Positions 13,751 to 49,496 of a DNA stretch of 64,000 nt are shown in pieces (positions within the stretch are counted from its first letter, which is position 1; each line of letters begins with the position of its first letter). This DNA is from Psychroserpens luteolus (lineage in GTDB: Bacteria; Bacteroidota; Bacteroidia; Flavobacteriales; Flavobacteriaceae). The position numbers and the translations under genes are program-made. The notes under the pieces were generated by a model that was not told the origin of the DNA, did no database searches, and saw only the letters and a list, made by a program, of their open reading frames with translations. The DNA lies in the NCBI RefSeq assembly GCF_021032705.1, contig NZ_JAHVXI010000003.1:300042-364041 (forward strand), written 5' to 3'.

Positions 13751-13793
13751 TAAACTTACAGTCTTAATTAATTAAAATCAGTGACTTTAGTCA
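13751..13793 (-). promoter_or_regulatory. Operator-promoter of the cytochrome operon
   Basis: Operator TGACTTTAGTCA at 13782-13793, inside a longer perfect palindrome GTGACTTTAGTCAC (13781-13794) within the 3' end of the Crp gene. Spacer of 23 bp to the -7 box TAAGTTTA (13751-13758). A second palindrome ACTGTA-N6-TACAGT (13745-13762) covers the -7 box and could be a repressor site. Confidence 0.65.
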
Positions 13794-14409
13794 CAGCCTT
13801 CATTACGATAATGCCTGATTTAGATTGTTTTACTTTTTTTTCAAATTCTAATTTTTTAAGTACTCTACTAATAACTTCTCTCGATGTTCCTAGTTCATAT
13901 GAAATGTCTTTATGTGACATTTTAATAATGATTGAATTTGAGACTGCTGCTTTTTTACATAAGTATCGATGTAGACGTAAATCTAAACGATCAAAAAGCA
14001 CATGATTAAGTGTATCTATAAGATCATAATACCTATCTGAAAAAAGCTTTAAATACATGGTATTAAAATCAGGATACTTTTTAATCCATAGATCTACTTT
14101 ATGAATTGGTAAGAATAAAATTTTGGACTTTTCCTCAGTTTTTGCAAAAAATGAACTGGGTTTATTTTTATTACTGGTTATAAAAGATAATACACAGCTT
14201 TCAGATGGCTTAATATGATATAATAAAAACTCTTTTTCACCATAAGACGTAAATACTTTAACTAATCCATCCAAAACAAAAGGTAAAGATTGTATGTATT
14301 GTCCTGCTGCAATTAACTCTGTATTTTCTGGAATGATTTTTTCAACAGAATACTTATCAATCTCATCAGCCAAAGACTCATTTAAAAAAGGAAGTGATGT
14401 GATCTTCAT
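13768..14409 (-). CDS. Crp/Fnr family transcriptional regulator
   Basis: A 213-residue protein: cyclic-nucleotide-binding-like sensor domain (about 20-125), dimer helix (RYYDLIDTLNHVLFDRLDLRLHRYL) and a Crp-type HTH with recognition helix TSREVISRVLKKLE. The Glu-x-x-Ser-Arg spacing in that helix is the one E. coli FNR uses to read TTGAT half-sites. No cysteine cluster for an iron-sulfur centre is present, so it is not an oxygen sensor of the FNR type; heme or small-molecule sensing is possible. The gene lies just upstream of the cytochrome operon and contains that operon's operator in its 3' end. Confidence 0.88.
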   Translation of the reverse strand: MKITSLPFLNESLADEIDKYSVEKIIPENTELIAAGQYIQSLPFVLDGLVKVFTSYGEKEFLLYHIKPSESCVLSFITSNKNKPSSFFAKTEEKSKILFLPIHKVDLWIKKYPDFNTMYLKLFSDRYYDLIDTLNHVLFDRLDLRLHRYLCKKAAVSNSIIIKMSHKDISYELGTSREVISRVLKKLEFEKKVKQSKSGIIVMKAVTKVTDFN

Positions 14410-14499
14410 AATCTGTTTTTTTATAGAATCAAGCTTGAATGTTTCTTTTTAGTGACATTTGTTTCTTAAATGTTTACTTTATGTTTCATTCTTAAAATT

Positions 14500-14985
14500 C
14501 TAGTTTTTCTCAAAAGTCAGCATATCTGTACCACCATTTCCTCCACTAATATCAATTAATTCGATTCTAGTTGACGATGTGGATACAATATCCCAATCGT
14601 CATTGAGGTCTTCAAAATTATTGGTTTCTGGCACTGGAAAGAAGATATTGAAATCAATATCATCATCATTACTACTATCATCATTACTATTACTATCATC
14701 TGTTACAGACCAGGTTCCTGTCATTGTAGTGGAGCCATTTGTAGCTATAAGCGATCCATCTGAATTAAAAGCAAAATCATATCCAGTAAAATCTGAAGTT
14801 TCATTCTGTCCGGAGTCATTGAAGTTGGTTATTCGCCAAGTTCCAGACTCCACAGTAGTTTCAATTTGAGCGATTTGCTGACTATTATCGTTTGGGTTTC
14901 CAACGTCATCGTCGTCTGAACAGCTAAACGACATTAATGAAAAGCTTAGTAGTATCAGCATACCGAAATACAGTCCTTTTTTCAT
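14500..14985 (-). CDS. Acidic lipoprotein with one lipocalin-like repeat
   Basis: A 161-residue lipoprotein (MSFSCSDDDD; lipid-anchored Cys). The mature part is one copy of a beta-rich domain beginning SGTWRITNFNDSG and ending in a conserved DDWDIVSTSSTRIELIDISGG segment plus TLTFEK-like tail. The same domain occurs three more times in the next gene upstream. A run rich in Asp, Asn and Ser (near residues 95-110) interrupts it. It is likely surface-exposed because the lipobox is followed by acidic residues, as in the surface lipoprotein export signal of Flavobacteria. The ligand is unknown; calcium or another cation is possible. Confidence 0.7.
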   Translation of the reverse strand: MKKGLYFGMLILLSFSLMSFSCSDDDDVGNPNDNSQQIAQIETTVESGTWRITNFNDSGQNETSDFTGYDFAFNSDGSLIATNGSTTMTGTWSVTDDSNSNDDSSNDDDIDFNIFFPVPETNNFEDLNDDWDIVSTSSTRIELIDISGGNGGTDMLTFEKN

Positions 14986-15018
14986 GATTTCTATAAGTTT
15001 AAGTTGTTAATATTGTTT

Positions 15019-16954: not shown

Positions 16955-16997
16955 TGATAAAAATCATAGCTTTATGAAGCTGATCTATTTAGTTTTG
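16955..16997 (+). promoter_or_regulatory. Operator-promoter of the sigma/FecR/TonB-receptor unit
   Basis: Operator TGATAAAAATCA (16955-16966), 23-bp spacer, -7 box TAGTTTTG (16990-16997), then 34 bases to the TTG start of the sigma factor. Same layout as the other promoters of the proposed regulon. Confidence 0.65.
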
Positions 16998-21092: not shown

Positions 21093-21135
21093 TGAGCAAT
21101 ATCATTTCCCAGATGTCACATTATAAATAGATTTG
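21093..21135 (+). promoter_or_regulatory. Operator-promoter of lactate dehydrogenase gene
   Basis: Operator TGAGCAATATCA (21093-21104), 23-bp spacer, perfect -7 box TAGATTTG (21128-21135), 26 bases before the ATG. Confidence 0.6.
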
Positions 21136-21161: not shown

Positions 21162-22154
21162 ATGAAAGTATTAATCTATAGTGCCAAAGATTTTGAGATT
21201 CCATATTTAAAACAAGCCAATAATAAGAAGCATACATTGAGCTTTACAGAAGAGGCCTTATCATCTGAAACAGCCATGAAAGCTGTAGGCTACGATGCTA
21301 TTTCAATTTTTTCGGCAGATGAAGCTTGTTTTATCACTATCGAAAAACTTAAGGATTTCGGTATAAAATATATAACACTTAGATCGGTTGGCTACGATAA
21401 TGTCAACTTAAGAACTGCCAAGCGATTACATATAAAAGTCGCAAACGTACCTGCCTATTCGCCGTATGCTATTGCCGAACACGCTGTCGCGCTATTGCAA
21501 ACATTAAACAGAAAGTTAATTGAATCCAATTTTAGAGTCAATCACTATAATTTTAACCTCAATGGTCTTGTTGGTTTTGATCTCAACCAAAAGACCGTCG
21601 GTATTATTGGCACAGGAAAAATTGGGGCTGTCATGAGTCGGATAATGCATGGTTTTGGTTGCATCTTATTAGGCTATGACATCGAAGAAAATGAAACATT
21701 GAAAGAACGCTATAATATGCGCTACACGACGTTAAAGGAATTATGTAATCAAGCAGATATTATCTCTTTACACCTTCCTTTAAATACCGAAACCCATCAA
21801 CTCATCAATGACGATTTAATTTCTGAAATGAAAGATGGAGTTATTCTTATTAATACTGCTAGAGGTGCTATTATCAATACAGAAGATGTCATAGAAGGTC
21901 TTAAAAACAAAAAGATTGGTGCTCTAGGCATAGATGTTTATGAAAATGAAAAAAACATATTTTTTAAAAATCGCTCTCAAGAATTACCTAATGACGATCT
22001 CCTTCTGAAATTAAATGCTATGCCAAATGTGTTAATAACGGGACACCATGCCTTTTTAACCGAAGAAGCACTCACAAATATTGCAGAAACCACTATCTAT
22101 AATTTAAATTGCTGGGCTTCTGGTAAAGACACCGAAAACGAATTAACTAATTAG
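21162..22154 (+). CDS. ldhA: NAD-dependent D-lactate dehydrogenase (LdhA type)
   Basis: A 330-residue member of the D-2-hydroxyacid dehydrogenases. NAD-binding GTGKIG motif (150-155), catalytic Arg234 (NTARG), Glu in DVYENE (about 262) and His in TGHHAF (about 295): the same positions and spacing as E. coli LdhA, including the DVYENE...FF segment that is typical of lactate-specific enzymes. It reduces pyruvate to D-lactate and regenerates NAD+ when respiration is limited, which fits control by an FNR-like operator. Confidence 0.88.
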   Translation: MKVLIYSAKDFEIPYLKQANNKKHTLSFTEEALSSETAMKAVGYDAISIFSADEACFITIEKLKDFGIKYITLRSVGYDNVNLRTAKRLHIKVANVPAYSPYAIAEHAVALLQTLNRKLIESNFRVNHYNFNLNGLVGFDLNQKTVGIIGTGKIGAVMSRIMHGFGCILLGYDIEENETLKERYNMRYTTLKELCNQADIISLHLPLNTETHQLINDDLISEMKDGVILINTARGAIINTEDVIEGLKNKKIGALGIDVYENEKNIFFKNRSQELPNDDLLLKLNAMPNVLITGHHAFLTEEALTNIAETTIYNLNCWASGKDTENELTN

Positions 22155-22367
22155 TTTATTTTCAGTACCGACAATTGGGTAACCTATTCTGGATAGTACA
22201 CGTTTTGCATTGTCGAAATCGTAATGAGTTTGAAAATCAAAAGAGGTTGTATTAGCTTCAATATTCACATCAACATCACTAATATGTTTTACCTGAGATA
22301 ATGCATTAACTATGGTTCTTTTACAACCACAACTCTTCAGGTTTTCTATATGAACTGTTGCTCTCAT
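22143..22367 (-). CDS. Small HMA-like metal-binding protein
   Basis: A 74-residue protein with the beta-alpha-beta-beta-alpha-beta pattern of heavy-metal-associated domains. The metal loop reads LKSCGCKRTI, so the two cysteines are separated by one residue rather than two. It may be a cytosolic copper chaperone-like or a degenerate domain. It overlaps the 3' end of the lactate dehydrogenase gene by 12 bases on the opposite strand and has its own operator-promoter. Confidence 0.72.
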   Translation of the reverse strand: MRATVHIENLKSCGCKRTIVNALSQVKHISDVDVNIEANTTSFDFQTHYDFDNAKRVLSRIGYPIVGTENKLIS

Positions 22368-22385: not shown

Positions 22386-22428
22386 TTAAACTAGTTGAAA
22401 TACTCCACTAATGAAATGATATTCATCA
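22386..22428 (-). promoter_or_regulatory. Operator-promoter between HMA gene and mlaE
   Basis: Operator TGATATTCATCA (22417-22428). On the minus strand a 23-bp spacer leads to TAGTTTAA (22386-22393), a slightly degenerate -7 box for the HMA gene. The mlaE gene on the plus strand has its own perfect -7 box TACATTTG at 22475-22482, 46 bp from the operator, so control of mlaE by the same site is uncertain. Confidence 0.5.
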
Positions 22429-22497
22429 GTATCAATAGCTGATACAAATCATTTGACACACCGCAGCTTAACCATACATTTGAATTGAATATTACCG

Positions 22498-23286
22498 ATG
22501 TATATGTTGGGATTCAAATCTATAAACGCACAACTGAAAGCCTTTCTAATTGAAATGGGAGAGCTTTCATACTTCACTTCAAGATTTTTAAAGGAAGCAT
22601 TTAAACGTCCTTTTGAATTCAAAGAATTACTAAAACAATGCTATAATATGGGCAACCGTTCTCTCCTATTGGTTGGCATTACTGGTTTTATTATTGGATT
22701 GGTATTGACCTTGCAAACAAGACCAACTTTGACTGAGTTTGGTGCTGTATCATGGATGCCTTCAATGGTTGGCATTTCGATAGTGAGAGAAATAGGTCCG
22801 ATTATAACTGCTTTAGTTTGTGCTGGTAGAATTGGATCTGGAATTGGCGCCGAATTAGGTTCAATGCGTGTAACAGAACAAATCGACGCCATGGAAGTTT
22901 CTGGTACAAATCCGTTTAAATACTTAGTCGTTACTAGAGTTTTGGCTGTTACCTTAATGCTACCTTTATTAGTGATTTTAGGAGATGCTATTGCCTTATT
23001 TGGTTCTTATTTAGTTGAACATGTAAAAGGCAATGTCTCATTTATGCTCTTTTTTAACCAAGTATTTGATTCGCTTGAATTTGGAGATATTGTACCTGCA
23101 ACGGTGAAATCTTTCTTTTTTGGTTTAGCCATAGGAATCGTTGGCTGTTTTAAAGGGTATTACTGTAAAAAAGGAACGGCTGGTGTTGGAAAAGCAGCAA
23201 ACTCTGCTGTGGTATTTACCTCATTGTTACTATTTGTAATTGACTTCATTGCTGTTTTTGTAACCGATATATTTTACGATCTATGA
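22498..23286 (+). CDS. mlaE: MlaE-type ABC transporter permease
   Basis: A 262-residue permease of the MlaE/YrbE family: five to six membrane segments and the conserved EIGPIITALVCAGRIGSGIGAELGSM motif that contacts the ATPase. With the next two genes it forms a phospholipid transport system between inner and outer membranes. MlaA, MlaB and MlaC homologues are not next to it. Start ATG 22498, 16 bases after a perfect TACATTTG -7 box. Confidence 0.88.
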   Translation: MYMLGFKSINAQLKAFLIEMGELSYFTSRFLKEAFKRPFEFKELLKQCYNMGNRSLLLVGITGFIIGLVLTLQTRPTLTEFGAVSWMPSMVGISIVREIGPIITALVCAGRIGSGIGAELGSMRVTEQIDAMEVSGTNPFKYLVVTRVLAVTLMLPLLVILGDAIALFGSYLVEHVKGNVSFMLFFNQVFDSLEFGDIVPATVKSFFFGLAIGIVGCFKGYYCKKGTAGVGKAANSAVVFTSLLLFVIDFIAVFVTDIFYDL

Positions 23287-24044
23287 TTGAGAAAAAAAAC
23301 ATATCGACCCAAGATACAGTACTTCACATCAAAGATTTACACAAAAGCTTTGGCGATAATCATGTACTTAACGGCTTTAACATGCAATTATACCAAGGCG
23401 AGAACTTAGTTATTATGGGAAAATCGGGATCGGGAAAATCGGTTATGATAAAATGCTTGGTTGGATTAATGGAAGCCGATAGTGGTTCTATTTCTGTTAT
23501 GGGTAACGACATTACCAAATTAGATCAAGAAGCGCTGGATATTTTAAGAGCAGATATTGGCTTCCTGTTTCAAGGTAGTGCTTTGTACGATTCTATGACT
23601 GTAAGAGAAAATTTAGAGTTTCCGTTACGTCGACACACAAAGAAATTTGGAGAAGCCATAGATACTCATGCTCTAGTTATTGAGGCCTTGGAGAATGTTG
23701 GATTGGCAGATGCCATAGACTTAATGCCATCGGAATTATCTGGAGGTATGAAACGACGAATTGCCTTAGCAAGAACACTAATCTTACAGCCGAAAATTAT
23801 TCTATATGATGAACCCACTAGTGGATTAGATCCTATTACTGCTAAAGAAATCATCATTTTAATGCAAGACATTCAGAAAAAATACAACACATCTTCACTC
23901 ATCATTACGCATGATGTGGATTGTGCCAGAGTAATTGCAGATAGAATGATACTACTTATAGATGGAACAAATTATGCCGTTGGCACTTTTAATGAATTAT
24001 CAAACCAAGAAGATCCAAAAATAAAAGCCTTCTTTAAACACTGA
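23283..24044 (+). CDS. mlaF: MlaF-type ABC transporter ATP-binding protein
   Basis: A 253-residue ABC ATPase with Walker A (GKSGSGKS), Q-loop (GFLFQGSALYDSMTV), signature (ELSGGMKRRIALAR) and Walker B (IILYDEPTSGLD). The GSALYDS segment after the Q-loop and the GGMKRR signature are typical of MlaF. Its ATG overlaps the permease stop (23283-23286), so the two are translationally coupled. It powers lipid transport by MlaE. Confidence 0.92.
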   Translation: MIEKKNISTQDTVLHIKDLHKSFGDNHVLNGFNMQLYQGENLVIMGKSGSGKSVMIKCLVGLMEADSGSISVMGNDITKLDQEALDILRADIGFLFQGSALYDSMTVRENLEFPLRRHTKKFGEAIDTHALVIEALENVGLADAIDLMPSELSGGMKRRIALARTLILQPKIILYDEPTSGLDPITAKEIIILMQDIQKKYNTSSLIITHDVDCARVIADRMILLIDGTNYAVGTFNELSNQEDPKIKAFFKH

Positions 24045-26110: not shown

Positions 26111-26153
26111 CTAATTTACCATCATACAAGCCAAACTAAAATGATATTAATCA
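26111..26153 (-). promoter_or_regulatory. Operator-promoter of peptide gene and 148-residue membrane protein
   Basis: Operator TGATATTAATCA (26142-26153), 23-bp spacer, TAAATTAG (26111-26118) at the -7 position (one mismatch to TAnnTTTG). Confidence 0.6.
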
Positions 26154-27131: not shown

Positions 27132-27175
27132 GTAAAGTACGATCAATTAAAGGTCTAACACAATGATATTAATCA
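27132..27175 (-). promoter_or_regulatory. Operator-promoter of the DUF2953/GerW pair
   Basis: Operator TGATATTAATCA (27164-27175), spacer 24 bp, TACTTTAC (27132-27139) at the -7 position; 14 bases later the ATG of the DUF2953-like gene. Confidence 0.6.
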
Positions 27176-28599: not shown

Positions 28600-28642
28600 T
28601 TAAATTACTCCATTCAGCATTGTTTTACTATGATAAAAATCA
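28600..28642 (-). promoter_or_regulatory. Operator-promoter of the flavodoxin-like/PPOX operon
   Basis: Operator TGATAAAAATCA (28631-28642), 23-bp spacer, TAATTTAA (28600-28607) at the -7 position; leader of about 22 bases after the -7 box. Confidence 0.6.
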
Positions 28643-29371: not shown

Positions 29372-29414
29372 TGACATTGATCATTTTACATACGACTCTT
29401 ATCATTTAATTTTA
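29372..29414 (+). promoter_or_regulatory. Operator-promoter of the 50-residue membrane protein gene
   Basis: Operator TGACATTGATCA (29372-29383), 23-bp spacer, -7 box TAATTTTA (29407-29414), 23 bases before the ATG at 29438. Confidence 0.65.
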
Positions 29415-34362: not shown

Positions 34363-34403
34363 AAATTAGCATGGAACACATTGCTATAAAATGATATTGG
34401 TCA
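34363..34403 (-). promoter_or_regulatory. Operator-promoter of the WG/protease/ABC operon
   Basis: Operator TGATATTGGTCA (34392-34403), 21-bp spacer, perfect -7 box TAATTTTG (34363-34370). The spacer is two bases shorter than in the other members and the operator has one imperfect half. Confidence 0.55.
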
Positions 34404-34845: not shown

Positions 34846-34888
34846 TAAATATAAATGCTTTAATGGGTAACACATATGATATAAATCA
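34846..34888 (-). promoter_or_regulatory. Operator-promoter of the TerB-like gene, divergent from the LOV kinase
   Basis: Operator TGATATAAATCA (34877-34888), 23-bp spacer, -7 box TATATTTA (34846-34853). In the kinase direction the nearest -7-like boxes (TACCTTTT at 34907, TACTTTTA at 34920) have other spacings (18 and 31), so feedback on the kinase is unproven. Confidence 0.6.
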
Positions 34889-34955: not shown

Positions 34956-36836
34956 ATGTTCCAGCAAGATCAAGAGATATTTAATATACTGTTCCAGGCA
35001 ATTTCTGAAGGTGTTATTATTATTGACAATAATCAGCACATTATGGAAATTAATTCAACTGCTGAATCTATATTTGGCTATGAAAAAGGGGAACTCATTC
35101 AACGAGAGTTGAACACTTTATTGCCTTCAAATTATCATCAGAGCCATGCCAAGCATATTGAAAAATTTGTCAAGAAAGGAAAGCGGAGACGTATGGGAGA
35201 AGCCTCAGATATTTTCGGTGTAAAAAAGAGCGGAGATATTATTGCGCTTGAGGTAGAACTTAACCCCTTTACAATTTATAACAAAACCTATGTCATGGCA
35301 TTGATCAAGGATGTTTCAGAAATAAAAGAAACTCAAAAAGATCTTATGTTAAAGAGTAAGGCTCTACAATCTGCAAGTAATGGTATTATTATTACTGATG
35401 CCTTAAAACCTGACAACCCAATTATTTATTTTAATTCGGCATTTCAAAACCTAACTGGATATTCAAGCAAAGAAATATTACATCACAACTGTAGGTTTTT
35501 ACAAGGTAAGGACACAGACCAATTACCACTTAAAACATTGAGAACTGCAATAAAAAAAGGTGAAAGTTGTCAAGTCACATTGCGCAATTACAAAAAGGAT
35601 GGGACATTATTTTGGAATGACCTGTACACTATGCCAATAACAAATGCAAAAGGAACGATAACACATTTTATTGGGATTCAGAATGATGTAACACAGCGCA
35701 GAAAAGCGGAAGCCGAACGTAATCATCTGTCAACTATTTTCGATGAATCTCTCAATGAAATATATGTTTTTGATGCCCACACCTTAAAATTTGTAAATGT
35801 CAATTATGGCGGACAAAAAAATAGCGGCTATACTATTGAAGAACTAAAGCAAATGACACCTTTAGATCTAAAAACTCAAGAAGATGAAATTACATTTAGA
35901 AAAAACACTGATATTTTATTAAAAAAGAATGTTGAAAAAATAGAATTTGAAGCCATACACCAAAGAAAAGATGGCACAACCTATCCCGTTGAAGTACATT
36001 TGCAACTTTCAAGTTTAGGTGACAACGAAGTTTTCGTTGCTATCATTCTAGACATCACCGAGCGTAAAAATTACACTGAAAAACTTGAGAATACAGTAGA
36101 GGAACGAACAGAACAACTTAAAGCAGCTTTATCAAAAGAAAAAGAACTCAATGAACTAAAAACCAGATTCTTATCTTTAGTTTCACATGAATTCAAAACA
36201 CCTCTAAGCGGTATTTTAACTTCAACTGTTCTGTTGAGTAAATATCAATTAACCGAAGAACAAAATCGAAGAGATAAACATATTAAAACGATCTCAGACA
36301 AAGTACATTACTTAAATAATATTTTAAATGATTTTCTATCTCTAGAAAAATTAGAAACAGGAAAACTAACATACAGTTTTAGCAATTTTAAATTAAGCAA
36401 GGTTGTAGATGAAGTGATTTATAATGCCAATATGCTTTTAAAAGAAGGTCAGTCTATTAAGTATCCAGATAATGTGAATGACTTATCCCTTTATCAAGAT
36501 GAGAAAATTGTCGAACTTATACTATCAAATTTAGTCAATAATGCCATTAAATATTCTCCAGAGCATTCGGTTATAACCATAGCCATCAAGCAAGATCAAG
36601 ACGTAACTACCATTCAAGTCCAAGACAACGGAATAGGAATTCCGAAGGCAGATCAGAAAAGTATTTTTGAGCGCTATTTTAGAGCAGAAAATGTAATTAA
36701 TACGCAAGGCACTGGTATAGGCTTAAACATTGCGAAACATCATTTAGAAAATTTAGGTGGCACTATTTATTTTGAAAGTGAAGAACAAAAAGGTACTACA
36801 TTTACAATAACATTACCTAATACTGTAAAACAATGA
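34956..36836 (+). CDS. PAS-LOV-PAS sensor histidine kinase
   Basis: A 626-residue cytoplasmic kinase without membrane segments. Domains: PAS (about 10-125) resembling FixL, with His64 aligned to its heme ligand; LOV (about 130-250) with flavin-adduct Cys179 in NCRFLQGKDTD and the flavin-contacting Asn211 (NYKKDG), Asn221 (FWN) and Gln242 (GIQNDVT), close to Bacillus YtvA; a third PAS (about 257-372); HisKA with phospho-His411 (SHEFKTP); HATPase with N box (NLVNNAIKYS), G1 (DNGIGIP) and GTGIGLNIAKH. It should sense blue light through FMN and perhaps a gas through heme. The FixL arginine that senses oxygen seems replaced, so heme binding is uncertain. Overlaps its response regulator gene by four bases. 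Confidence 0.92.
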   Translation: MFQQDQEIFNILFQAISEGVIIIDNNQHIMEINSTAESIFGYEKGELIQRELNTLLPSNYHQSHAKHIEKFVKKGKRRRMGEASDIFGVKKSGDIIALEVELNPFTIYNKTYVMALIKDVSEIKETQKDLMLKSKALQSASNGIIITDALKPDNPIIYFNSAFQNLTGYSSKEILHHNCRFLQGKDTDQLPLKTLRTAIKKGESCQVTLRNYKKDGTLFWNDLYTMPITNAKGTITHFIGIQNDVTQRRKAEAERNHLSTIFDESLNEIYVFDAHTLKFVNVNYGGQKNSGYTIEELKQMTPLDLKTQEDEITFRKNTDILLKKNVEKIEFEAIHQRKDGTTYPVEVHLQLSSLGDNEVFVAIILDITERKNYTEKLENTVEERTEQLKAALSKEKELNELKTRFLSLVSHEFKTPLSGILTSTVLLSKYQLTEEQNRRDKHIKTISDKVHYLNNILNDFLSLEKLETGKLTYSFSNFKLSKVVDEVIYNANMLLKEGQSIKYPDNVNDLSLYQDEKIVELILSNLVNNAIKYSPEHSVITIAIKQDQDVTTIQVQDNGIGIPKADQKSIFERYFRAENVINTQGTGIGLNIAKHHLENLGGTIYFESEEQKGTTFTITLPNTVKQ

Positions 36837-37888
36837 AAACCATTTTACTTATTGAAGATGACGTTGTTCTAAGGGAAAATACTGCAGAACTTTTAGAGCT
36901 TTCGCATTATAAAGTAATCACTACTTCAAATGGCAAGACTGGTATTGATATGGCAAGAGAACACTCACCAGACATTATCATTTGTGATATTATGATGCCT
37001 GAGCTTGATGGATATGAAACGCTTAAAATCCTATCTCAAGATGACGCGACGAAATATATTCCGTTTATTTTTTTATCTGCCAAAACTGAACATAAAGATG
37101 TAAGAAAAGGCATGAATATGGGAGCAGATGACTACATCACAAAGCCTTTCACAGAGGACGAACTTATTAGTGCTATTGAAAGTCGCTTAGCAAAAGCATC
37201 TATATTAAAAGATGCAAGAGCTAACACTAACACTTTAATAAAAGACACCAATAGAAATGAATTAAGGTCACTCAACGATCTAAAAAACTATTTTGATGAT
37301 CATGGTACTGCATTTACATTCGAAAAAGATGCGATCATTTACCGCGAAGGTGATCATTCTAATTATATCTTCCTTATCACCAAAGGGTCTGTAAAATGTC
37401 ATCAAATAGATGATCAAGGCAAAGAACTTGTCACAACATTATATAAAGAAGATGATCTATTTGGCTATACCTCATTTACGAATAATTTGCCTCACAGAGA
37501 AACAGCCATGGCGATTGGAAATGTACAGCTCGTAGGTATTTCGATTATTGAGTTTAACCAAATCTTAAATACCAATCATAAATTGGCTTTAGAGTTAATG
37601 CAGTTATTATCTGATGATTTATTGCTAATGAAAAATCAATTATTAGAAATGGCTTATGGTTCGGTGAATAAAAAAACTGCAGCCACTATTATAAAGTTTT
37701 CAGAAAAAATAAATCGCAAACCTGAAGATCCTATTAAGATATCGCGAAGCGATTTAGCAAGTGTTGCTGGTGTTGCTACTGAAACTTTAATTAGAGCGCT
37801 AACGAACTTTAAAAAACAGGGTATCATAAACATCGAAGGACGAAATATTAAAGTTGTTGATTTAGAAAAGCTAAAATCCATCAGTTAA
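36833..37888 (+). CDS. Response regulator fused to a Crp-type cNMP/HTH module
   Basis: A 351-residue regulator. Receiver domain (1-125) with acidic pair EDD (8-10), phospho-acceptor Asp52 (CDIMMPE) and conserved Lys in TKPF; short linker; cyclic-nucleotide-binding-like domain (about 150-255; IIYREGDHSNYIFLITKGSVKC, DLFGYTSF); Crp-type HTH (about 270-345) with recognition helix TETLIRALTNF. Glu and Arg of that helix are placed as in CRP/FNR, which read TGA half-sites. Start ATG overlaps the kinase stop (36833-36836). It is the leading candidate to bind the TGA-N6-TCA operators of the island. Confidence 0.92.
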   Translation: MKTILLIEDDVVLRENTAELLELSHYKVITTSNGKTGIDMAREHSPDIIICDIMMPELDGYETLKILSQDDATKYIPFIFLSAKTEHKDVRKGMNMGADDYITKPFTEDELISAIESRLAKASILKDARANTNTLIKDTNRNELRSLNDLKNYFDDHGTAFTFEKDAIIYREGDHSNYIFLITKGSVKCHQIDDQGKELVTTLYKEDDLFGYTSFTNNLPHRETAMAIGNVQLVGISIIEFNQILNTNHKLALELMQLLSDDLLLMKNQLLEMAYGSVNKKTAATIIKFSEKINRKPEDPIKISRSDLASVAGVATETLIRALTNFKKQGIINIEGRNIKVVDLEKLKSIS

Positions 37889-37895
37889 CTAAACA

Positions 37896-37938
37896 TGACT
37901 AATATCATTTATGAAGTGACATCTTACTAATACATTTG
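37896..37938 (+). promoter_or_regulatory. Operator-promoter of the first USP gene
   Basis: Operator TGACTAATATCA (37896-37907), 23-bp spacer, perfect -7 box TACATTTG (37931-37938), 20 bases before the ATG. The operator begins eight bases after the response regulator stop. Confidence 0.7.
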
Positions 37939-39206: not shown

Positions 39207-39249
39207 TGATAGATATCATTGTATGAGAATTAAGTTAAAATTATATTTA
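39207..39249 (+). promoter_or_regulatory. Operator-promoter of a candidate small RNA
   Basis: Operator TGATAGATATCA (39207-39218), 23-bp spacer, -7 box TATATTTA (39242-39249). No reading frame follows before a strong hairpin at 39301, so the transcript appears to be non-coding. Confidence 0.6.
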
Positions 39250-39381: not shown

Positions 39382-39424
39382 TGATATATATCATTGTTTT
39401 TGCATCATCTACAACCTAATTTTA
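39382..39424 (+). promoter_or_regulatory. Operator-promoter of the second USP operon
   Basis: Operator TGATATATATCA (39382-39393, perfect palindrome), 23-bp spacer, -7 box TAATTTTA (39417-39424), 25 bases before the ATG. Confidence 0.7.
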
Positions 39425-39449
39425 CAATTAACACTTAAACTTTGTACAG

Positions 39450-40312: not shown

Positions 40313-41167
40313 ATGAAACATATTCTATTACCTACCGATTTTTCTGAAAACGCATGGAATGCCATTACATATGCCATTACATTATTTAAAAATGAGGATT
40401 CCACCTTTTACTTATTGAATGCGTATACTCCTGTTATTTATCATGTCGAATATGTATTGGGTTATCCGGCTCAATTTGGCTTAGGAGATGTGATAAGAAC
40501 TAATGCTCAAGAGAACTTAAATGAGACGGTTTCGAAAATCAAAGAAGAATTTGGAATTAATCCAAAGCATACATTTGAAACCGAAGCTAGGTTTGACACC
40601 CTAACATCTGGCATTAAAGCATTTATGGAGAAACACCCTATTGATCTGATTGTGATGGGAACCAAAGGTGCAACTGGTGCCAAAGAAATATTGTTTGGAT
40701 CAAATACTGTACATGTGTTTAAAGAAATCAAATGTCCTATTCTAGCCATCCCATTTGGTTTTGAATATGAATCACCTCATGAAGTTCTATTTCCTACAGA
40801 TTTAGAAGTAGATTATAATAAAACACACTTAGATATTCTTCATGATATAGCAAAATCCCATCATTCTAGAGTTAACGCCATGCACATTTCAACAGGTTAT
40901 GACTTAACCGATTTACAAGAAAAGAATAAATCAAGACTAGAGTTAATGTTTGAGGACACAGCCTTTTTATTTCATGATATCAAGAGCATGAATATTTTAG
41001 AAGGAATTAATGCATTTCAGGTGAAGTATAAAATTAATTTATTGGTCATGATTAATAATAAACATTCCTTTTTTGAAAACTTATTTTTCAAGAATACCAT
41101 TAATCAAATTGGATTTCATTTAAATATTCCATTCTTAGTGATTCCTCCAAAAAAGATAGAACATTAG
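40313..41167 (+). CDS. Universal stress protein (tandem Usp domains)
   Basis: A 284-residue paralogue: LLPTDFSENAWNAITYAITLF, then VMGTKGATGAKEILFGSNT with intact G-x2-G-x9-G-S loop. Degenerate second domain from FPTDLEVDYNKTHL. Second gene of the operon that starts at 39450. The loop is nearly identical to that of the USP at 41236, so these two are probably the most recent duplicates. Confidence 0.92.
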   Translation: MKHILLPTDFSENAWNAITYAITLFKNEDSTFYLLNAYTPVIYHVEYVLGYPAQFGLGDVIRTNAQENLNETVSKIKEEFGINPKHTFETEARFDTLTSGIKAFMEKHPIDLIVMGTKGATGAKEILFGSNTVHVFKEIKCPILAIPFGFEYESPHEVLFPTDLEVDYNKTHLDILHDIAKSHHSRVNAMHISTGYDLTDLQEKNKSRLELMFEDTAFLFHDIKSMNILEGINAFQVKYKINLLVMINNKHSFFENLFFKNTINQIGFHLNIPFLVIPPKKIEH

Positions 41168-41210
41168 TGATTTATATCATTTCATAGCCTAATTGTAAAT
41201 CTTAATTTTC
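41168..41210 (+). promoter_or_regulatory. Operator-promoter of the fourth USP gene
   Basis: Operator TGATTTATATCA (41168-41179) begins at the base after the preceding stop codon. Spacer 23 bp, -7 box TAATTTTC (41203-41210), 25 bases before the ATG. Confidence 0.68.
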
Positions 41211-41235: not shown

Positions 41236-42066
41236 ATGAAAAAAAACATCTTATTCCCAACAGATTTTTCAGATAATGCGTGGAGCGCTATTGTGTATGC
41301 GTTAAAACTATATGCTGAAGTTGAATGTAAATTCTATTTTTTACACTCTACAAAAATGAGCGTTTCAACAATGTCAAATTTTTCAAATAAATTATTGAAG
41401 GTTATGTCTGAAAATGCCATGAAAGAACTTGTAGAATTGAAAACTATGGCTGAAGTTTCAAACGCCAATGCAAATCATGAGTTTGAAATCATTTTAAGTT
41501 CTAGTGACATTGAGACTGCTGTAAAATCATCAATAAAAAAATATCAAATCGACTTGATGGTTATGGGAACAAAAGGTGCAACAGGTGCCAAAGAATTTTT
41601 CTTCGGAAGCAATACCGTACGAATTATAAAAAAAGTGAAAGGCTGCCCTATTCTAGTGGTTCCAGACGAGTTTAACTTTGTACCGCCTAAGCAAATAGCA
41701 TTTCCCACAGATTACACTAGGTTTTATGACGATAAGGAATTAAGACCACTAAAGGATCTAGCAGATCTATTTGATTCTAAGATTTTACCAGTTTGTATTC
41801 TATCCAAAGACAAGTTGACAGATATCCAAGACTATAATATGACCATGCTTAAAAACTATCTAGAACACTATAATACGAGTTTTCATTTCATGCCAAATTA
41901 TGCTAAAAAAACAGATGAAATTAATGATTTCATTGCGTTATTAGAAGTAGATATGTTAGCCATGATAAATTATAAACACAGTTTTATTGAGAGCATTATA
42001 AAAGAACCTATTATCAAAAAAATTGGGTTTCATCCCATAATTCCATTTTTAGTTATTTCAGAATAA
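41236..42066 (+). CDS. Universal stress protein (tandem Usp domains)
   Basis: A 276-residue paralogue: LFPTDFSDNAWSAIVYALKLY and VMGTKGATGAKEFFFGSNT, then CPILVVPDEF. Degenerate second domain from FPTDYTRFYDDKEL. Single gene with its own operator-promoter; the following operator for the next USP starts six bases after its stop. Confidence 0.92.
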   Translation: MKKNILFPTDFSDNAWSAIVYALKLYAEVECKFYFLHSTKMSVSTMSNFSNKLLKVMSENAMKELVELKTMAEVSNANANHEFEIILSSSDIETAVKSSIKKYQIDLMVMGTKGATGAKEFFFGSNTVRIIKKVKGCPILVVPDEFNFVPPKQIAFPTDYTRFYDDKELRPLKDLADLFDSKILPVCILSKDKLTDIQDYNMTMLKNYLEHYNTSFHFMPNYAKKTDEINDFIALLEVDMLAMINYKHSFIESIIKEPIIKKIGFHPIIPFLVISE

Positions 42067-42071: not shown

Positions 42072-42114
42072 TGATATATATCATTTTGCATCTTATATCT
42101 GTGAAGTACTTTTA
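42072..42114 (+). promoter_or_regulatory. Operator-promoter of the fifth USP operon
   Basis: Operator TGATATATATCA (42072-42083, perfect palindrome), 23-bp spacer, -7 box TACTTTTA (42107-42114). This fixes the gene start at ATG 42137 rather than the earlier in-frame ATG at 42086, which lies upstream of the -7 box. Confidence 0.72.
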
Positions 42115-43487: not shown

Positions 43488-44339
43488 ATGGAAATCAAAA
43501 ATTTAGAGATAACCAAATCATCAGGTGAAAAAGTAAAATTTTCATTAGAAAAACTACGTTCATCTTTAAAGAGAACTGGAGCTAGTGCAACTATTATTGA
43601 TCAAATTCTTGATACAGTTCGTGACGAACTCTATCAAGGCATATCCACAAGAGAAATTTACAATCGAGCATTCGCTCTACTTAAAAAGAGTAAAAGTCAC
43701 CTCGCTTCAAAATACAAGCTAAAAAAAGCCATATATGAACTTGGTCCCACCGGATTTCCTTTTGAGCGTTTTGTAAGTGCAGTTTTAAATTACTCTGGCT
43801 ATAAAACCGAAGTAAGTAAGACATTACAAGGAAAATGTGTTTCTCACGAAATAGATGTTTTAGCCTTTAAAAATTCTGAAGCGACCATAATCGAGTGCAA
43901 ATTTCATGGCGAGCAAGGTCTCAAATGCAATGTCAAAATTCCGTTATATATCAACTCTCGCTATCAGGATGTAAAAGCTAATTGGGCCAAAATATCAAAG
44001 AATCAAACGCTATTAACTCAAGGTTGGGTGGTAACAAATACGAGATTTACACAAGATGCCTTAACCTATGGTAATTGTGTGGGCTTGTATTTATTGAGTT
44101 GGGATTATCCAAAAAACAATGGCTTAAAAGATAGAATTGATAGATTAGGATTATACCCTATAACAGTCTCAACACTATTAACCAACAGAGAAAAACAATT
44201 TTTATTAAGCAGAGATGTTGTACTCTGCCGCGAACTATTGTATGACAATTTCTACCTAGATCATTTAGGTATATCAGAAATAAGGAAAGAAAAAATTCTC
44301 GATGAAGTCTCATGCCTCTGTGATCAAAAGAACTTCTAA
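43488..44339 (+). CDS. ATP-cone domain / Mrr-type nuclease fusion
   Basis: A 283-residue protein. Residues 1-90 form an ATP-cone (ITKSSGEKVKFSLEKLRSSLKRTGAS...ISTREIYNRAFALLKK), the nucleotide-sensing domain known from ribonucleotide reductases and NrdR. Residues about 100-200 are a PD-(D/E)xK nuclease of the Mrr_cat type with GFPFERFVSAVLNYSGY, acidic D in HEIDVLAF and the ExK motif IIECKFH. A nuclease or DNA-binding protein gated by ATP/dATP is the inference. Such fusions are found in stress islands with USPs. ATG 43488 is chosen because an earlier one lies in the terminator. Confidence 0.83.
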   Translation: MEIKNLEITKSSGEKVKFSLEKLRSSLKRTGASATIIDQILDTVRDELYQGISTREIYNRAFALLKKSKSHLASKYKLKKAIYELGPTGFPFERFVSAVLNYSGYKTEVSKTLQGKCVSHEIDVLAFKNSEATIIECKFHGEQGLKCNVKIPLYINSRYQDVKANWAKISKNQTLLTQGWVVTNTRFTQDALTYGNCVGLYLLSWDYPKNNGLKDRIDRLGLYPITVSTLLTNREKQFLLSRDVVLCRELLYDNFYLDHLGISEIRKEKILDEVSCLCDQKNF

Positions 44340-44340
44340 T

Positions 44341-45714
44341 ATGGAAAAATTTGTACGTATAAACTTTTTAGGCGCAGCTGGTGTTGTCACTGGATCAAAA
44401 ATCCTAATTCAAACATCAGAAAAGAATATCTTAATAGACTGCGGAATGTTTCAAGGACTTAAAGAGCTAAGAGCTTTAAATTGGAACAATCTGCCAATTG
44501 ATGTGAGTACCATTGATGTCGTTTTACTTACGCATGGTCATTTAGATCATGTAGGCTATTTACCTCGTTTAGTGCAACAAGGGTTTAAAGGAAAAATTAT
44601 GGGTACTGCTCCTACATTAGCTATAGCAGAGATTATACTCAAGGATAGTGCTAAAATTCATGAGGAAGAAGCTAAAAAAGCTAATATTGAGAAGTATTCA
44701 AGTCATGATCCCGCTTTACCCTTTTATACGATAAGGGAAGCTGAGCATACGCTTAGATTATTTCAGATAGAAATTGAAGATAAATGGATGGTGCTATCTG
44801 AACACATATCCTATAGGTTTCAATACAATGGTCATATAATTGGAGCAACTTTCATAGAGTTAGATATCAATGGTAAACGCTTTGTATTTTCAGGAGATAT
44901 TGGTAGATGCAATGATTACTTGTTAGACGACCCAAAAACTCCAGAATGGGCAGATGTCTTATTTATGGAGAGTACATATGGAAATAAGCTGCATCCTTCA
45001 GAAGACGTAGAGTCTATTCTAACTGCTCTTATTAGTGATACAATTCATAAAAAAGAACATCTAATAATCCCAAGTTTTGCTGTAGAGCGTTTGCAAACAC
45101 TCATGTATATTTTATGGACGCTTTACAAGAAAAACAAAATTCCTAACATTCCTATTTTCATAGATAGTCCTATGGGAAATAATGTTCTGGAGGTTTTTAA
45201 ACGTTTCCCAAAATGGCATAAGTTATCCATGTCAGATTATAACGCTATGTGCAATCATGTTACTATTATTCAATCGTATAAGGAAACTTGGGAAACTATA
45301 GACGATAAACGGTCTAAAATTATAGTAGCAGGAAGTGGTATGGTCACTGGTGGACGTGTGCTCACTTATTTGCAACAGCTTATAGATGAGTCATCAACTA
45401 CGGTTCTATTAGTAGGTTTTCAAGCTGAAGGTACACGGGGTAGACAACTACAAGAAGGCGCTCATGAAATAAAAATTTTCGGCAAATATTATCCTGTAAA
45501 AGCAACCATAAAACATATTGAAAGCCTATCAGCTCATGCAGATCAACAAGATTTAATAAAGTGGATGAGCGGTATTAAAAACATTCCCGAAGAGGTCTAT
45601 TTAATTCATGGAGAAGCTACAGCTTTAGATGTTTTTAGACTAAAAATACAAGACATCTATCATTGGAATGTGAGTATTCCTAAACTAACAGACGTTAAAA
45701 AGGTTATGATCTAA
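44341..45714 (+). CDS. MBL-fold beta-CASP RNase (CPSF73/YSH1-like)
   Basis: A 457-residue metallo-beta-lactamase/beta-CASP protein. Motif 2 THGHLDH, motif 3 region (QYNGHIIGATFIELD), motif 4 (FVFSGDIGR), beta-CASP start MESTYGNKLHP, GSGMVTGGR, and the C-terminal RNA-specificity motif SLSAHADQQDL. These are endo- or exoribonucleases of the CPSF family. One base separates it from the nuclease gene; the frame extends to 44302 but the ATG at 44341 gives the family-typical N-terminus. It may degrade RNA during growth arrest. Confidence 0.9.
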   Translation: MEKFVRINFLGAAGVVTGSKILIQTSEKNILIDCGMFQGLKELRALNWNNLPIDVSTIDVVLLTHGHLDHVGYLPRLVQQGFKGKIMGTAPTLAIAEIILKDSAKIHEEEAKKANIEKYSSHDPALPFYTIREAEHTLRLFQIEIEDKWMVLSEHISYRFQYNGHIIGATFIELDINGKRFVFSGDIGRCNDYLLDDPKTPEWADVLFMESTYGNKLHPSEDVESILTALISDTIHKKEHLIIPSFAVERLQTLMYILWTLYKKNKIPNIPIFIDSPMGNNVLEVFKRFPKWHKLSMSDYNAMCNHVTIIQSYKETWETIDDKRSKIIVAGSGMVTGGRVLTYLQQLIDESSTTVLLVGFQAEGTRGRQLQEGAHEIKIFGKYYPVKATIKHIESLSAHADQQDLIKWMSGIKNIPEEVYLIHGEATALDVFRLKIQDIYHWNVSIPKLTDVKKVMI

Positions 45715-45738: not shown

Positions 45739-45781
45739 TGATAATTATCATTTCAAAAAACACATTTCAATAGTACATTTC
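45739..45781 (+). promoter_or_regulatory. Operator-promoter of the Hsp20 gene
   Basis: Operator TGATAATTATCA (45739-45750, perfect palindrome), 23-bp spacer, -7 box TACATTTC (45774-45781), 35 bases before the ATG. Confidence 0.7.
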
Positions 45782-45816: not shown

Positions 45817-46269
45817 ATGTCACTTATCAAATTTAACAACAGAAATAGATTATTTCCTTCATGGAGTAATGATAAACTTAAAGATTTTCTAAGCTCAGAT
45901 GATTTCTTTCATACAGACTTCTTTGAAGAAGATAGTCTTATGCCAGCAATGAATGTAAAAGAACACGATAACGATTACGAAATTGAATTTGCCGCACCAG
46001 GCTTTTCAAAAACAGATTTTGAAGTTACGATCGATGAAAATATTCTTAATGTTTGCGGAGAGAAAAAGAAAGAAGAGGAGAAAAAAGAAGAAGATTATAC
46101 ACGACGTGAATTTAGCTATAATTCTTTCAAAAGATCACTTACACTGCCAAAATCAGTTAATCTTGATCAAGATGTAAAAGCCACTTATAAGAATGGTATT
46201 TTAAAATTAAATCTTAAAAAGAAAGACGAAGCAAAAGAAGCGTTTAAGAAAAAGATAGAAGTGCTTTAA
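45817..46269 (+). CDS. Hsp20/alpha-crystallin small heat-shock protein
   Basis: A 150-residue chaperone: MPAMNVKEHDNDYEIEFAAPGFSKTDFEVTID begins the alpha-crystallin domain, which ends with the YKNGILKLNLKKK motif (the conserved GxLxLxxPK region without the proline), and the tail carries KKIEVL. A Lys/Glu-rich loop (KKKEEEKKEED) sits in the middle. It holds unfolding proteins. Under the same operator as the USP genes, as hspX is in the mycobacterial DosR regulon. Confidence 0.93.
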   Translation: MSLIKFNNRNRLFPSWSNDKLKDFLSSDDFFHTDFFEEDSLMPAMNVKEHDNDYEIEFAAPGFSKTDFEVTIDENILNVCGEKKKEEEKKEEDYTRREFSYNSFKRSLTLPKSVNLDQDVKATYKNGILKLNLKKKDEAKEAFKKKIEVL

Positions 46270-47470: not shown

Positions 47471-48412
47471 TCAGTTGACCTGTGCAAAATAATACAATCC
47501 AGAAGATGTCAAGTCTATTTCTTTTAAGTCGCGATACCGTTCAGCAAGTTCGCTCCTTAGCAACTTGTTTTTCATTGTTGTAATCTTCTTAAATCTAATT
47601 TCAAAGTTATACTTTTTCAGCAAATTTAAATGTGTAGAAATAGGCTCTCTATTAATTAAATTAATGCCTCCAGTAACAATCTTCCATTCTTTGACACTAT
47701 AAGTCCAATGACCATTCCAAAGTTTAGAGGTGTTCAATGACCTTAAATCTATGGTATGAGAAATACAACCGTCCTTTTTTAACCAACGATTCATTTTTTC
47801 ATACATAAAATCTAAGTCGTTGATATGTTGTAAAACTGTATGAGAACATATGAGATCTACTGTATGATCCTCAATATGTTTTTTATCTGACCAAGGAATT
47901 ATAGACCTCACAAAGGTATTATTTGGATCATGAGGATGCTCTAGTTCATTTCTAATTTTTTCTATTCTGTCTTTCTCCAAACATGTCTCTAAATGTTCAA
48001 TGGTTAAGAGATGACCAATAGAATTTTCTTCCCTGTTGTTAGAATTAATCTGCTTTTGAAAACGTTCTACCAATTCGTCAAAAATTCTCAAATTGGTGGA
48101 ATCATTCCAAAATTGAGTTTTCTCCAAAGCATAAAATTTTGAAGCTCCTGACAACAATGCTGAAAGACCTACTCCCAAAGAATTACCAGAGCCAATTTCG
48201 ATAACTACATCTGGAACACTGTCATTTAATTTACGCCAGTTTCCAAAATGTTGCATCCAAATATTATAGCAATATTCACTCTTACTAGCGGCATACTCTT
48301 TATTAATAAGAATACTTCTAGCTAAAGCAGAATTATTTATAAAGAACTTAGCCGTAGCTCTTATCCTTCCTTTGAGATACCCTTTAGTGAGGCTTTTATA
48401 TTTGTCTAACAC
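47471..48412 (-). CDS. SAM-dependent methyltransferase
   Basis: A 313-residue class I methyltransferase. Motif I is DVVIEIGSGNSLGVGL, followed by ALEKTQFW (acidic end of strand 2) and DLICSHTVLQHIND with the HVLQH-type motif of methyltransferase_11/23 enzymes; a helical N-terminal extension of about 65 residues precedes it. Substrate unknown; similar proteins occur in polysaccharide or lipid loci. Single gene, convergent with the preceding lipoprotein. Confidence 0.82.
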   Translation of the reverse strand: MLDKYKSLTKGYLKGRIRATAKFFINNSALARSILINKEYAASKSEYCYNIWMQHFGNWRKLNDSVPDVVIEIGSGNSLGVGLSALLSGASKFYALEKTQFWNDSTNLRIFDELVERFQKQINSNNREENSIGHLLTIEHLETCLEKDRIEKIRNELEHPHDPNNTFVRSIIPWSDKKHIEDHTVDLICSHTVLQHINDLDFMYEKMNRWLKKDGCISHTIDLRSLNTSKLWNGHWTYSVKEWKIVTGGINLINREPISTHLNLLKKYNFEIRFKKITTMKNKLLRSELAERYRDLKEIDLTSSGLYYFAQVN

Positions 48413-48573
48413 AATGATATAGATTAATCGATTTACTTATTATTTGCAAAACCCTTATCAGATAATGCCGCCTTTGAAGTAGTTTGATTTTATGAAGAAT
48501 GTGGAGCTAATTTCATCTAAATTACTAAAAATAAAGCGGTTAGACAAATCACATGTTCTGCATGAGCATAATA

Positions 48574-49431
48574 TCACTTTATATAGAATGATCCAGTATT
48601 CTCCATGACAAGTAATGGCACTTTCAAATTGAATGCAAAACTCTCGGCAGGATGCGTCACAAATAATCGCTCTAAAAATGAATGTTTTCTACTCATCATA
48701 GTCAATAAACCTATATCATTGTCATTAATATAATTGGTAATCACTTTGAACAATTTATCCTCTTCTAGCTCTACAAATGAGTGATTAACTTTTGAAAAAC
48801 AAGAGTCCAAATACGCTCTGTTATTTTCTTGATATTCAGTAAGATGTTCCGAATCCTTAACATGAATGATGTGTACATTATAGTTATTGAGCTCAACCAA
48901 ATTAATTAATGGTACGAGATCTTCTGAGTTATATGCTGTATAATAATTTGATGGAAATGCTATATCACTTATTTTTGAATATGTATAGTTATTAGGAACC
49001 GCTAATACTGGACAAGAACAGCGTTGAATAACTCTTACAGTATGTGATCCAAATAGTTTCTTGCTCATGGTTGAAGCCCCTCGTGTTCCCATAACGATCA
49101 TATCAATTTGCTCGAGATCAATAAGTTGGTTGATTCCATCGATAAAATTGTCATAATCTACTTTTGCTTCAAATTCATGTAACGTATTTTGATAGTCCTT
49201 TTTCAAAGTTCTAATGAGTGTCTTTACTTTTGTCTTGGCAGAATCAATCAAAGAGTGAAATATAGTCTCCGAAGGTTGCATGGCCATCAAATCATCGGAC
49301 ACAAATGATGACACCTTCTGAATATTTAGCACATAGAATTTACAAGGCTCATTTTGATAAAAAGCCATTGCATAACGAATTGCATTAAGGGAGTTATCCG
49401 AGAAATCTGTTGGTAACAATATCTTTTTCAT
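48574..49431 (-). CDS. Universal stress protein (tandem Usp domains)
   Basis: A 285-residue sixth paralogue: LLPTDFSDNSLNAIRYAMAFY and VMGTRGASTMSKKLFGSHT with an intact nucleotide loop, CPVLAVPNNY, and a degenerate second domain from FPSNYYTAYNSEDL. It stands alone on the opposite strand, 5.6 kb from the other USP genes, with the same operator-promoter type. Confidence 0.92.
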   Translation of the reverse strand: MKKILLPTDFSDNSLNAIRYAMAFYQNEPCKFYVLNIQKVSSFVSDDLMAMQPSETIFHSLIDSAKTKVKTLIRTLKKDYQNTLHEFEAKVDYDNFIDGINQLIDLEQIDMIVMGTRGASTMSKKLFGSHTVRVIQRCSCPVLAVPNNYTYSKISDIAFPSNYYTAYNSEDLVPLINLVELNNYNVHIIHVKDSEHLTEYQENNRAYLDSCFSKVNHSFVELEEDKLFKVITNYINDNDIGLLTMMSRKHSFLERLFVTHPAESFAFNLKVPLLVMENTGSFYIK

Positions 49432-49453
49432 AATTAGTGATTTTGATGTTACT

Positions 49454-49496
49454 CTAAATTACTAAGCTTTGTTCAAAAAAATTATGACATTTATCA
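49454..49496 (-). promoter_or_regulatory. Operator-promoter of the sixth USP gene
   Basis: Operator TGACATTTATCA (49485-49496), 23-bp spacer, TAATTTAG (49454-49461) at the -7 position, 22 bases before the ATG. This is the rightmost site found. Confidence 0.62.

Follow-up and report, generated by a model that had tools for sequence, protein, structure and literature searches.

Which regulator reads a palindrome that recurs before many genes of one stretch of the Psychroserpens luteolus genome, and which signal would it pass on? The stretch (C32:300042-364041, 64 kb of the 3.84-Mb genome; hereafter ‘the window’) carries TGA-N6-TCA at a fixed spacing from a −7-like promoter box. It also holds adjoining genes for a sensor histidine kinase and for a protein, called REC-CRP here, in which a receiver domain is fused to a CRP-type DNA-binding part. 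In relatives the sites cluster at REC-CRP genes and differ in sequence dialect from the sites of a second regulator, an FNR-type Crp. From these observations and the domain anatomy of the two proteins we propose, as the probable reading, that the palindromes of the window are class II operators most likely bound by REC-CRP, which the adjacent kinase would phosphorylate and which would activate the genes behind them.

The bare palindrome is mildly enriched: the window has 37 matches to TGA-N6-TCA versus 27.9 expected, and 3 of 100 shuffles reach 37. The significant part is the fixed spacing. With the box written as TAnnTT (the definition used for counts in the window; TAnnTTT was used for the loci of relatives), palindrome and box are separated by a gap of 23 bp in 18 cases and by any other gap from 5 to 60 bp in at most four; the stricter TAnnTTT gives 14 cases at gap 23 and no more than two at other gaps. 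In total, 18 palindromes serve 19 predicted promoters, 18 at gap 23 and one at gap 24, the surplus arising because the palindrome at 29372 serves two divergent promoters. The sequence-only reading of this DNA had listed 17 palindromes, all of which are present where it placed them. The promoter at gap 24 is that of 27164 (minus strand). The earlier counts of 17 promoters, 15 of them at gap 23, have to be raised to 19 and 18, and the list was incomplete: a site at 22440 (plus strand, before an MlaE operon) had been missed.

Activators of the CRP and FNR families bind in class II position when centred at −41.5. In Flavobacterium, according to a start-site mapping study, the TAnnTTTG box lies at −12 to −5 from the start (PMC9723704). 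Given this box position, a gap of 23 bp puts the palindrome centre at −41.5 from the expected start. The half-sites are of CRP/FNR type, paired as a palindrome and each with the core TGA, and their fixed distance to the −7 box, enriched at gap 23 both in the window and in relatives, matches −41.5; the exact spacing thus supports class II placement of a predicted CRP/FNR-type operator. An open reading frame (ORF) starts within ∼45 bp of the box at 17 of the 19 promoters, in two cases (16955 and 29372 minus) via TTG only. Three small ORFs below the 80-amino acid cut-off (13512-13721, 22143-22367 and 29438-29590), without entry in the first ORF list, were found through the operator.

For the genome-wide test we used TGAYN4RTCA-N23-TANNTT, whose Y and R come from a logo built on sites in other species. 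It has 32 matches in the genome versus 5 for the reversed control, and 17 of the 32 fall inside the window (binomial p 3e-22). A looser scan of all gaps from 10 to 36 (TGATN5TCA, TANNTTT) gave 153 versus 84. Model R1 was built from the window sites, which makes its scan of the same genome circular (26 matches with E<0.01, 19 in the window); the call on this genome rests on the pattern, not on R1.

To see whether the spacing recurs in other species, we analyzed the loci of the best 80 of 576 REC-CRP relatives (named records, by title mostly from Flavobacteriaceae genera). A palindrome with TAnnTTT at gap 23 occurs 334 times, versus a mean of 10.5 (standard deviation 4.4, maximum 21) at other gaps, gaps 22-24 being excluded from the mean. 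At least one gap-23 site is present in 78 of the 80 loci, and the 329 distinct sites have the consensus [C/A]TGA[T/C]-N4-[A/G]TCAT, followed by T-rich bases and TAnnTTT[A/G]. In 73 genomes of family f1, the part of the 296 searched genomes for which site counts were taken, TGAYN4RTCAT-N22-TANNTTT has 861 matches versus 35 for the reversed pattern. The refuting condition set with the sequence-only reading, an equal frequency genome-wide, was put to the test and did not refute it; its claim of a spacing beyond chance is confirmed, and that of a class II position is supported. It had named no regulator; REC-CRP, as well as the second regulator with its other dialect, had escaped it.

The density of sites peaks at REC-CRP: up to a distance of 2.5 kb from the gene it is 0.41 per kb, and at 7.5-10 kb it is 0.14 per kb, the control per off-gap being 0.003-0.012 per kb (0.012 within 2.5 kb of REC-CRP). 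A divergent site stands ahead of the kinase in 41 of 74 loci, and the site found in the window directly behind the REC-CRP stop codon has counterparts in 59 of 78 loci. The two genes of the window are:

34956..36836, plus strand: sensor histidine kinase, 626 amino acids, PAS1-LOV-PAS3-HisKA-HATPase (Pfam)
36833..37888, plus strand: REC-CRP, receiver fused to a cNMP-fold domain and HTH_Crp_2 (Pfam), recognition helix ATETLIR

REC-CRP contributes one of six HTH_Crp_2 matches in the genome, five of which are above the family cut-off. Its receiver has the acidic pair, phospho-Asp, Ser/Thr and Lys of response regulators: E8, D9 and D52 are kept in 79 of the 80 relatives (one gap), S82 and K104 in all 80, and the Glu and Arg of the recognition helix in 79-80. 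The kinase gene adjoins REC-CRP in 75 of the 80 loci; in three of the other five REC-CRP is near a contig end. The protein is 98% identical to one of an uncultured Psychroserpens sp. In the database, among the best 8000 candidates that were scored, at least 7905 proteins match it with an E value no higher than 1e-40; among the 120 listed matches the names, where given, are generic (‘response regulator’, ‘CRP-like cAMP-binding protein’). When plasmids were searched with the DNA of the kinase/REC-CRP pair, a single match of 147 bp appeared, in an EAL-domain gene.

Site numbers also follow the presence of REC-CRP. The f1 genomes with a close REC-CRP (at least 49% identity) have a median of 16 sites (range 8-43, n=23), those without REC-CRP a median of 6 (range 0-19, n=39), with reversed-pattern controls of ∼0.5 in both groups; those whose REC-CRP is distant (37-42% identity, n=11), kept as a class of their own, have a median of 11. 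G086, where the match covers the receiver only, was classed as lacking REC-CRP. Counted per genus, there are 17.5 sites with REC-CRP versus 8.0 without (p 1e-5). Because genus g2 supplies 25 of the 39 genomes that lack REC-CRP, the test was repeated with g2 left out; the medians were then 16 and 8 (p 4e-5). G252, the sole other genome of the same genus examined, has no REC-CRP match at 1e-30, retains the FNR-type Crp (91% identity) and has 4 sites versus 21 in P. luteolus.

Sites in genomes without REC-CRP, looked at through eight stretches from four genomes, are accounted for by islands of the FNR-type Crp, in which the same operator at gap 23 stands ahead of ccoN, hemN-like, CBS-like and Usp-like genes. 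P. luteolus has such an FNR-type Crp/cbb3 oxidase island on C43. The FNR-type protein has an N-terminal CxxC; REC-CRP begins with the receiver domain and lacks the N-terminal Cys cluster of Fe-S FNR proteins. The recognition helices, ATESAIR in FNR and ATETLIR in REC-CRP, have the common motif ATE[S/T]xIR.

We compared 323 distinct sites from 77 REC-CRP-only loci with 83 sites from 45 FNR-only loci, having dropped L027, L028 and L081 (REC-CRP with an FNR match) and L159, L160 and L175 (FNR with a REC-CRP match). The two dialects differ most at −2 (A in REC-linked versus C in FNR-linked sites) and at +4 and +13 (T versus others), with p down to 5e-17; sites from related loci do not count as independent here. 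REC-CRP sites would read TCATTT and FNR sites TCAT[A/G]TTT. A log-odds classifier, tested on entire loci kept out of training (from which L134 and L135 were omitted too), was correct for 285 of 328 REC-linked and 67 of 79 FNR-linked sites; the area under the curve, 0.935, is optimistic because orthologous sites of related species stay in training. In the window, 17 of 20 site-orientations are REC-CRP-like (34877 plus, with no box at 23, and 27164, at gap 24, being included in the 20), whereas on C43 three of four sites are FNR-like. It is likely that REC-CRP and FNR overlap in vivo. The promoter of the FNR-type Crp gene itself often has a palindrome with a TA box at gap 9 (L135:12693-12704; L143-L153): there are 25 gap-9 matches in the 45 FNR loci, and 11 of 12 listed stand before the FNR start, which suggests self-repression. 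In nine further cases, where the target in an FNR locus belongs to the Crp family, the gap is 23, not 9.

What the kinase may sense was judged from its domains. Against the PDB, PAS1 of the window kinase matches DosP (E 5.8e-14) and FixL (E 1.3e-7); for the ortholog from L159, FixL is the best match (E 3.3e-14), with His and Arg columns aligned. His64 of PAS1 aligns with chain residue His77 of DosP, the heme ligand, and with the FixL His; in FixL the His and Arg are His200 and Arg220. Among the aligned rows, 68 of 75 have the proximal heme-ligand His and 50 of 76 the distal Arg, which is important for O2 binding (Arg97 of DosP); the aligned DosP chains themselves carry Ala there. PMC4263535 mentions His77, Met95 and Arg97 of DosP, mostly within titles of its reference list. 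The second domain, a LOV domain with a predicted flavin-binding core and the reactive Cys in NCRFLQ, matches PDB LOV domains with E values down to 1.4e-33, and stretches of the kinase resemble NCBIfam YtvA_fam and BluLightHisKinLov below their cut-offs. Two adjacent kinases of relatives have the LOV length, with NCRFLQ changed to NLRFLQ (L041) or not found (L015), so that the light-reactive Cys seems to be lost in both. The common part of the adjacent kinases is the first PAS domain; among solved structures, those most similar to it are of heme O2 sensors.

The sequence-only reading had seen a low-oxygen or low-energy response in the genes of the window, and this gains indirect support from two sides. 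The same operator geometry stands before the ccoN, hemN-like and CBS-like genes at the FNR-type Crp, and in L028, L159 and L160 the kinase/REC-CRP pair sits between ccoN/ccoI genes and FNR (in L159 Pfam confirms COX1-FixO, a P-type ATPase, the PAS kinase and Crp). No other observation speaks as strongly for a role of the pair in the oxygen response as this placement.

The predicted operators of the window are given below with their boxes (gap 23 unless stated) and the genes behind them, and with one neighboring gene that overlaps a site.

13782..13793, minus strand: predicted operator, box 13751-13758; YgaP-like transmembrane small ORF 13512-13721
13768..14409, minus strand: second Crp/Fnr-like protein, 213 amino acids, recognition helix SREVISR, overlapping the 13782 site
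16955..16966, plus strand: predicted operator, box 16990-16997; ECF sigma/FecR/TonB-type unit from 17032 (TTG)
21093..21104, plus strand: predicted operator, box 21128-21135; D-2-hydroxyacid dehydrogenase 21162-22154
22417..22428, minus strand: predicted operator, box 22386-22393; HMA-domain ORF of 74 amino acids, 22143-22367
22440..22451, plus strand: predicted operator, box 22475-22482; MlaE/ABC/MlaD operon 22498-25043
26142..26153, minus strand: predicted operator, box 26111-26118; 25542-25988, with a GTG start 122 bp past the box
27164..27175, minus strand: predicted operator, box at gap 24; 26611-27117, then YtfJ-like 26228-26599
28631..28642, minus strand: predicted operator, box 28600-28607; 28065-28577, PPOX-type 27591-28052, DUF7670 27190-27588
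29372..29383, both strands: predicted operator of two divergent promoters; minus side CDP-alcohol phosphatidyltransferase 28683-29306 (TTG start; ATG at 29276), plus side 50-amino acid ORF 29438-29590, without family
34392..34403, minus strand: predicted operator, box 34361-34368; WG-repeat protein 33725-34333, then M50-CBS protease 32615-33700
34877..34888, minus strand: predicted operator, box 34846-34853; protein of 129 amino acids 34433-34822
37896..37907, plus strand: predicted operator directly 3′ of the REC-CRP stop, box 37931-37938; Usp 37959-38819
39207..39218, plus strand: predicted operator, box 39242-39249; Usp 39450 by way of a long leader, or else an RNA without annotation
39382..39393, plus strand: predicted operator, box 39417-39424; Usp 39450-40298, Usp 40313-41167
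41168..41179, plus strand: predicted operator, box 41203-41210; Usp 41236-42066
42072..42083, plus strand: predicted operator, box 42107-42114; Usp, ATG at 42137
45739..45750, plus strand: predicted operator, box 45774-45781; Hsp20 45817-46269
49485..49496, minus strand: predicted operator, box 49454-49461; Usp-like protein 48574-49431

Tandem operators (39207 and 39382) stand ahead of a single Usp gene in 39207-39449. No ATG was found within 160 bp of the 39207 promoter, so that the transcript that may begin at ∼39254 would be either a long leader or an RNA not yet annotated.

Targets were also assigned in relatives. In the 77 REC-CRP-only loci, an ORF begins no more than 200 bp away from 288 of the 328 sites (median box-to-start distance 23 bp). 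Usp proteins account for 122 of these 288 targets, in 67 loci, followed by the orphan family of 34433-34822 (32), WG and MlaE (10 each), Hsp20 (7) and PPOX (4); 16 more belong to seven other window families, three of them being the kinase, and 87 have no homologue in the window. Many of the 87 resemble, as judged by eye, ribosome hibernation factors; one such protein, from the FNR locus L136, is S30AE by Pfam. Many gene labels in the loci of relatives were assigned by eye from sequence starts, ten proteins having been checked with Pfam. The 129-amino acid protein 34433-34822 (minus strand), second most frequent among assigned targets with homologues as targets in 32 of the 77 loci, has no Pfam, NCBIfam or PHROG match; the PHROGs search was made with two orphan ORFs of the window and gave no match.

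Some other features of the window lie apart from the operators. An Rfam search of the window returned only a tRNA (54939-55012) and a Flavo-1 RNA (RF01705, 53558-53628, minus strand), a class described in PMC9723704 as widespread in Flavobacteriaceae and without clear function. The beta-CASP metallo-hydrolase at 44302-45714 (plus strand) has below-cut-off similarity to the NCBIfam type VII Cas14 model; it is most likely an ordinary beta-CASP RNase.

How would the system work? Binding, phosphorylation and every further signalling step are predictions here, as are the sensing of O2 and light and whether the genes are switched on or off. Low O2, and in this lineage perhaps also light, would change kinase activity: PAS1 may report O2 through a predicted heme, as in FixL and DosP, and the LOV domain may add blue-light input. 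Phosphate would pass from the kinase to Asp52 of REC-CRP, whose CRP part would then dimerise on TGA-N6-TCA and, at −41.5, contact and recruit RNA polymerase, turning stress genes on. The output would be a low-oxygen/energy-stress set comprising Usp proteins, Hsp20, the M50 protease, the PPOX-type protein, the 2-hydroxyacid dehydrogenase and the lipid-transport-like ABC operon. This set would run parallel to that of the FNR-type Crp, which would use the same geometry for cbb3 oxidase genes.

Oxygen control in rhizobia by the FixL-FixJ-FixK cascade offers the closest comparison. By analogy, the best reading is that a FixL-like kinase feeds a fused FixJ and FixK, which would activate Usp, Hsp20 and other stress genes. 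A related rhizobial cascade, hFixL-FxkR-FixK, is described in PMC7888657. Like both cascades, the present system combines a FixL-type PAS kinase with a response regulator and an activator of the CRP/FNR family; a regulator of FNR type exists in parallel, and cbb3 oxidase genes lie nearby in some relatives. Unlike FixL-FixJ-FixK, it belongs to another phylum, has receiver and CRP in one protein without a separate fixK transcription step, has mainly stress genes as predicted targets and, in this lineage, a LOV domain inserted in the kinase. We do not class the system as FixLJ because the distal Arg of the kinase is absent here and heme chemistry is predicted only. PAS1 is similar in sequence to FixL and to E. 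coli DosP (PMC4263535) and has the conserved His column; it differs from them in the Ser at the distal Arg, and heme binding is predicted. With FNR-type Crp regulons the system has in common the TGA-N6-TCA palindrome, the class II position and low-oxygen genes; REC-CRP differs in having a receiver instead of the N-terminal Cys region and a dialect distinct at −2, +4 and +13. The LOV domain with NCRFLQ is like those of LOV photoreceptors and LOV histidine kinases (NCBIfam NF052652, NF052306); however, whole-protein scores are under the cut-offs of these models, and the LOV domain, which follows another PAS domain as an additional input, is missing from most orthologous kinases. Searches of open-licence PMC papers, judged by titles and abstract starts, listed none on this operator in Flavobacteriaceae, on this regulon or on REC-CRP function; in the nearest paper, PMC8510549, a Flavobacteriales genome was scanned with a Bacteroides MalR matrix.

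Several observations weigh against REC-CRP as the reader of these sites. Two loci with REC-CRP (L032 and L034) have no gap-23 site; in genus g3 there is no excess (9 and 9 sites with REC-CRP versus 4, 9 and 13 without); and f1 genomes without REC-CRP still average 7.2 gap-23 sites versus 0.49 in the control. Because loci and genomes are phylogenetically related, the counts are not independent, and the same relatedness flatters the dialect classifier. By that classifier three of the 20 window site-orientations are FNR-like, namely 16955 (log-likelihood ratio −1.7), 37896 (−1.6) and 49485 (−3.3), and 34877 plus scores near zero. Since the recognition helices are near-identical and sites exist without REC-CRP, FNR may bind some or all of the window sites. 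The FNR-type Crp on C43 could accordingly be the main activator of the window promoters, with REC-CRP minor or co-acting; its loci, like C43, have the same operator at gap 23, and Usp homologues are 16 of the 46 assigned targets there. We regard this as unlikely, however: the sites cluster at REC-CRP, their counts rise with its presence, and the dialect of the other 17 site-orientations is that of REC-CRP. A loop from REC-CRP back to its kinase was looked for and rejected as well, a point that does not help our reading: no TA box at 23 was found on the kinase side of 34877, the kinase operon of the window thus lacks a gap-23 box, and the kinase makes up 3 of the 288 targets in relatives.

The input side has difficulties of its own. 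The window kinase has Ser84 in place of the distal Arg, and the LOV motif is present in just 11 of 75 adjacent kinases. REC-CRP might activate the promoters while the kinase here mainly senses blue light or a redox/energy state, PAS1 having perhaps lost O2 sensing; the intact NCRFLQ and the Ser in the Arg97 column fit such a change. We find it doubtful, because PAS1 with its His, rather than LOV, is the common part of these kinases and because of the cbb3 oxidase/FNR gene context in three loci; light as the ancestral signal is rejected by the rarity of the motif. CRP/FNR proteins can also repress, and repressor sites usually vary in position. The gap-9 palindrome of the FNR gene is suggestive in this respect, and yet the single invariant spacing at −41.5, seen 334 times in relatives, is class II activator geometry and makes it quite improbable that the window palindromes are repressor operators. 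The 213-amino acid Crp/Fnr-like protein, encoded inside the window over the 13782 site, was rejected as the reader: it has matches of at least 45% identity in 6 of 295 other genomes among those listed, G236 carries a relative and has zero sites, f1 genomes with at least 40 sites (G061, G220 and G278) have no match, and its helix, SREVISR, differs. We consider its role as the regulator highly improbable. That AT-rich intergenic DNA produced the pattern by chance would suit the weak enrichment of the palindrome alone, but gap 23 is enriched in the window and in the loci of relatives, and whole genomes show the same over reversed controls; this rejects it, leaving a practically negligible probability.

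If our reading holds, REC-CRP proteins gain a DNA motif and a promoter geometry, together with a list of targets and a likely signal, and a CRP/FNR activator could be controlled by a phosphorylation switch where others depend on a ligand or an Fe-S cluster. The 43-bp rule of operator, gap and box predicts promoters and small genes in Flavobacteriaceae. A wider reading, to which we give somewhat less than even credence, is that of a family-wide stress regulon of Flavobacteriaceae under a one-protein FixJ-FixK, controlled by phosphorylation and insulated from FNR by dialect, with a kinase that, in this lineage, merges heme-PAS oxygen and LOV blue-light signals. If this were true, surface bacteria would tune their hypoxia and energy-stress genes by depth-related cues.

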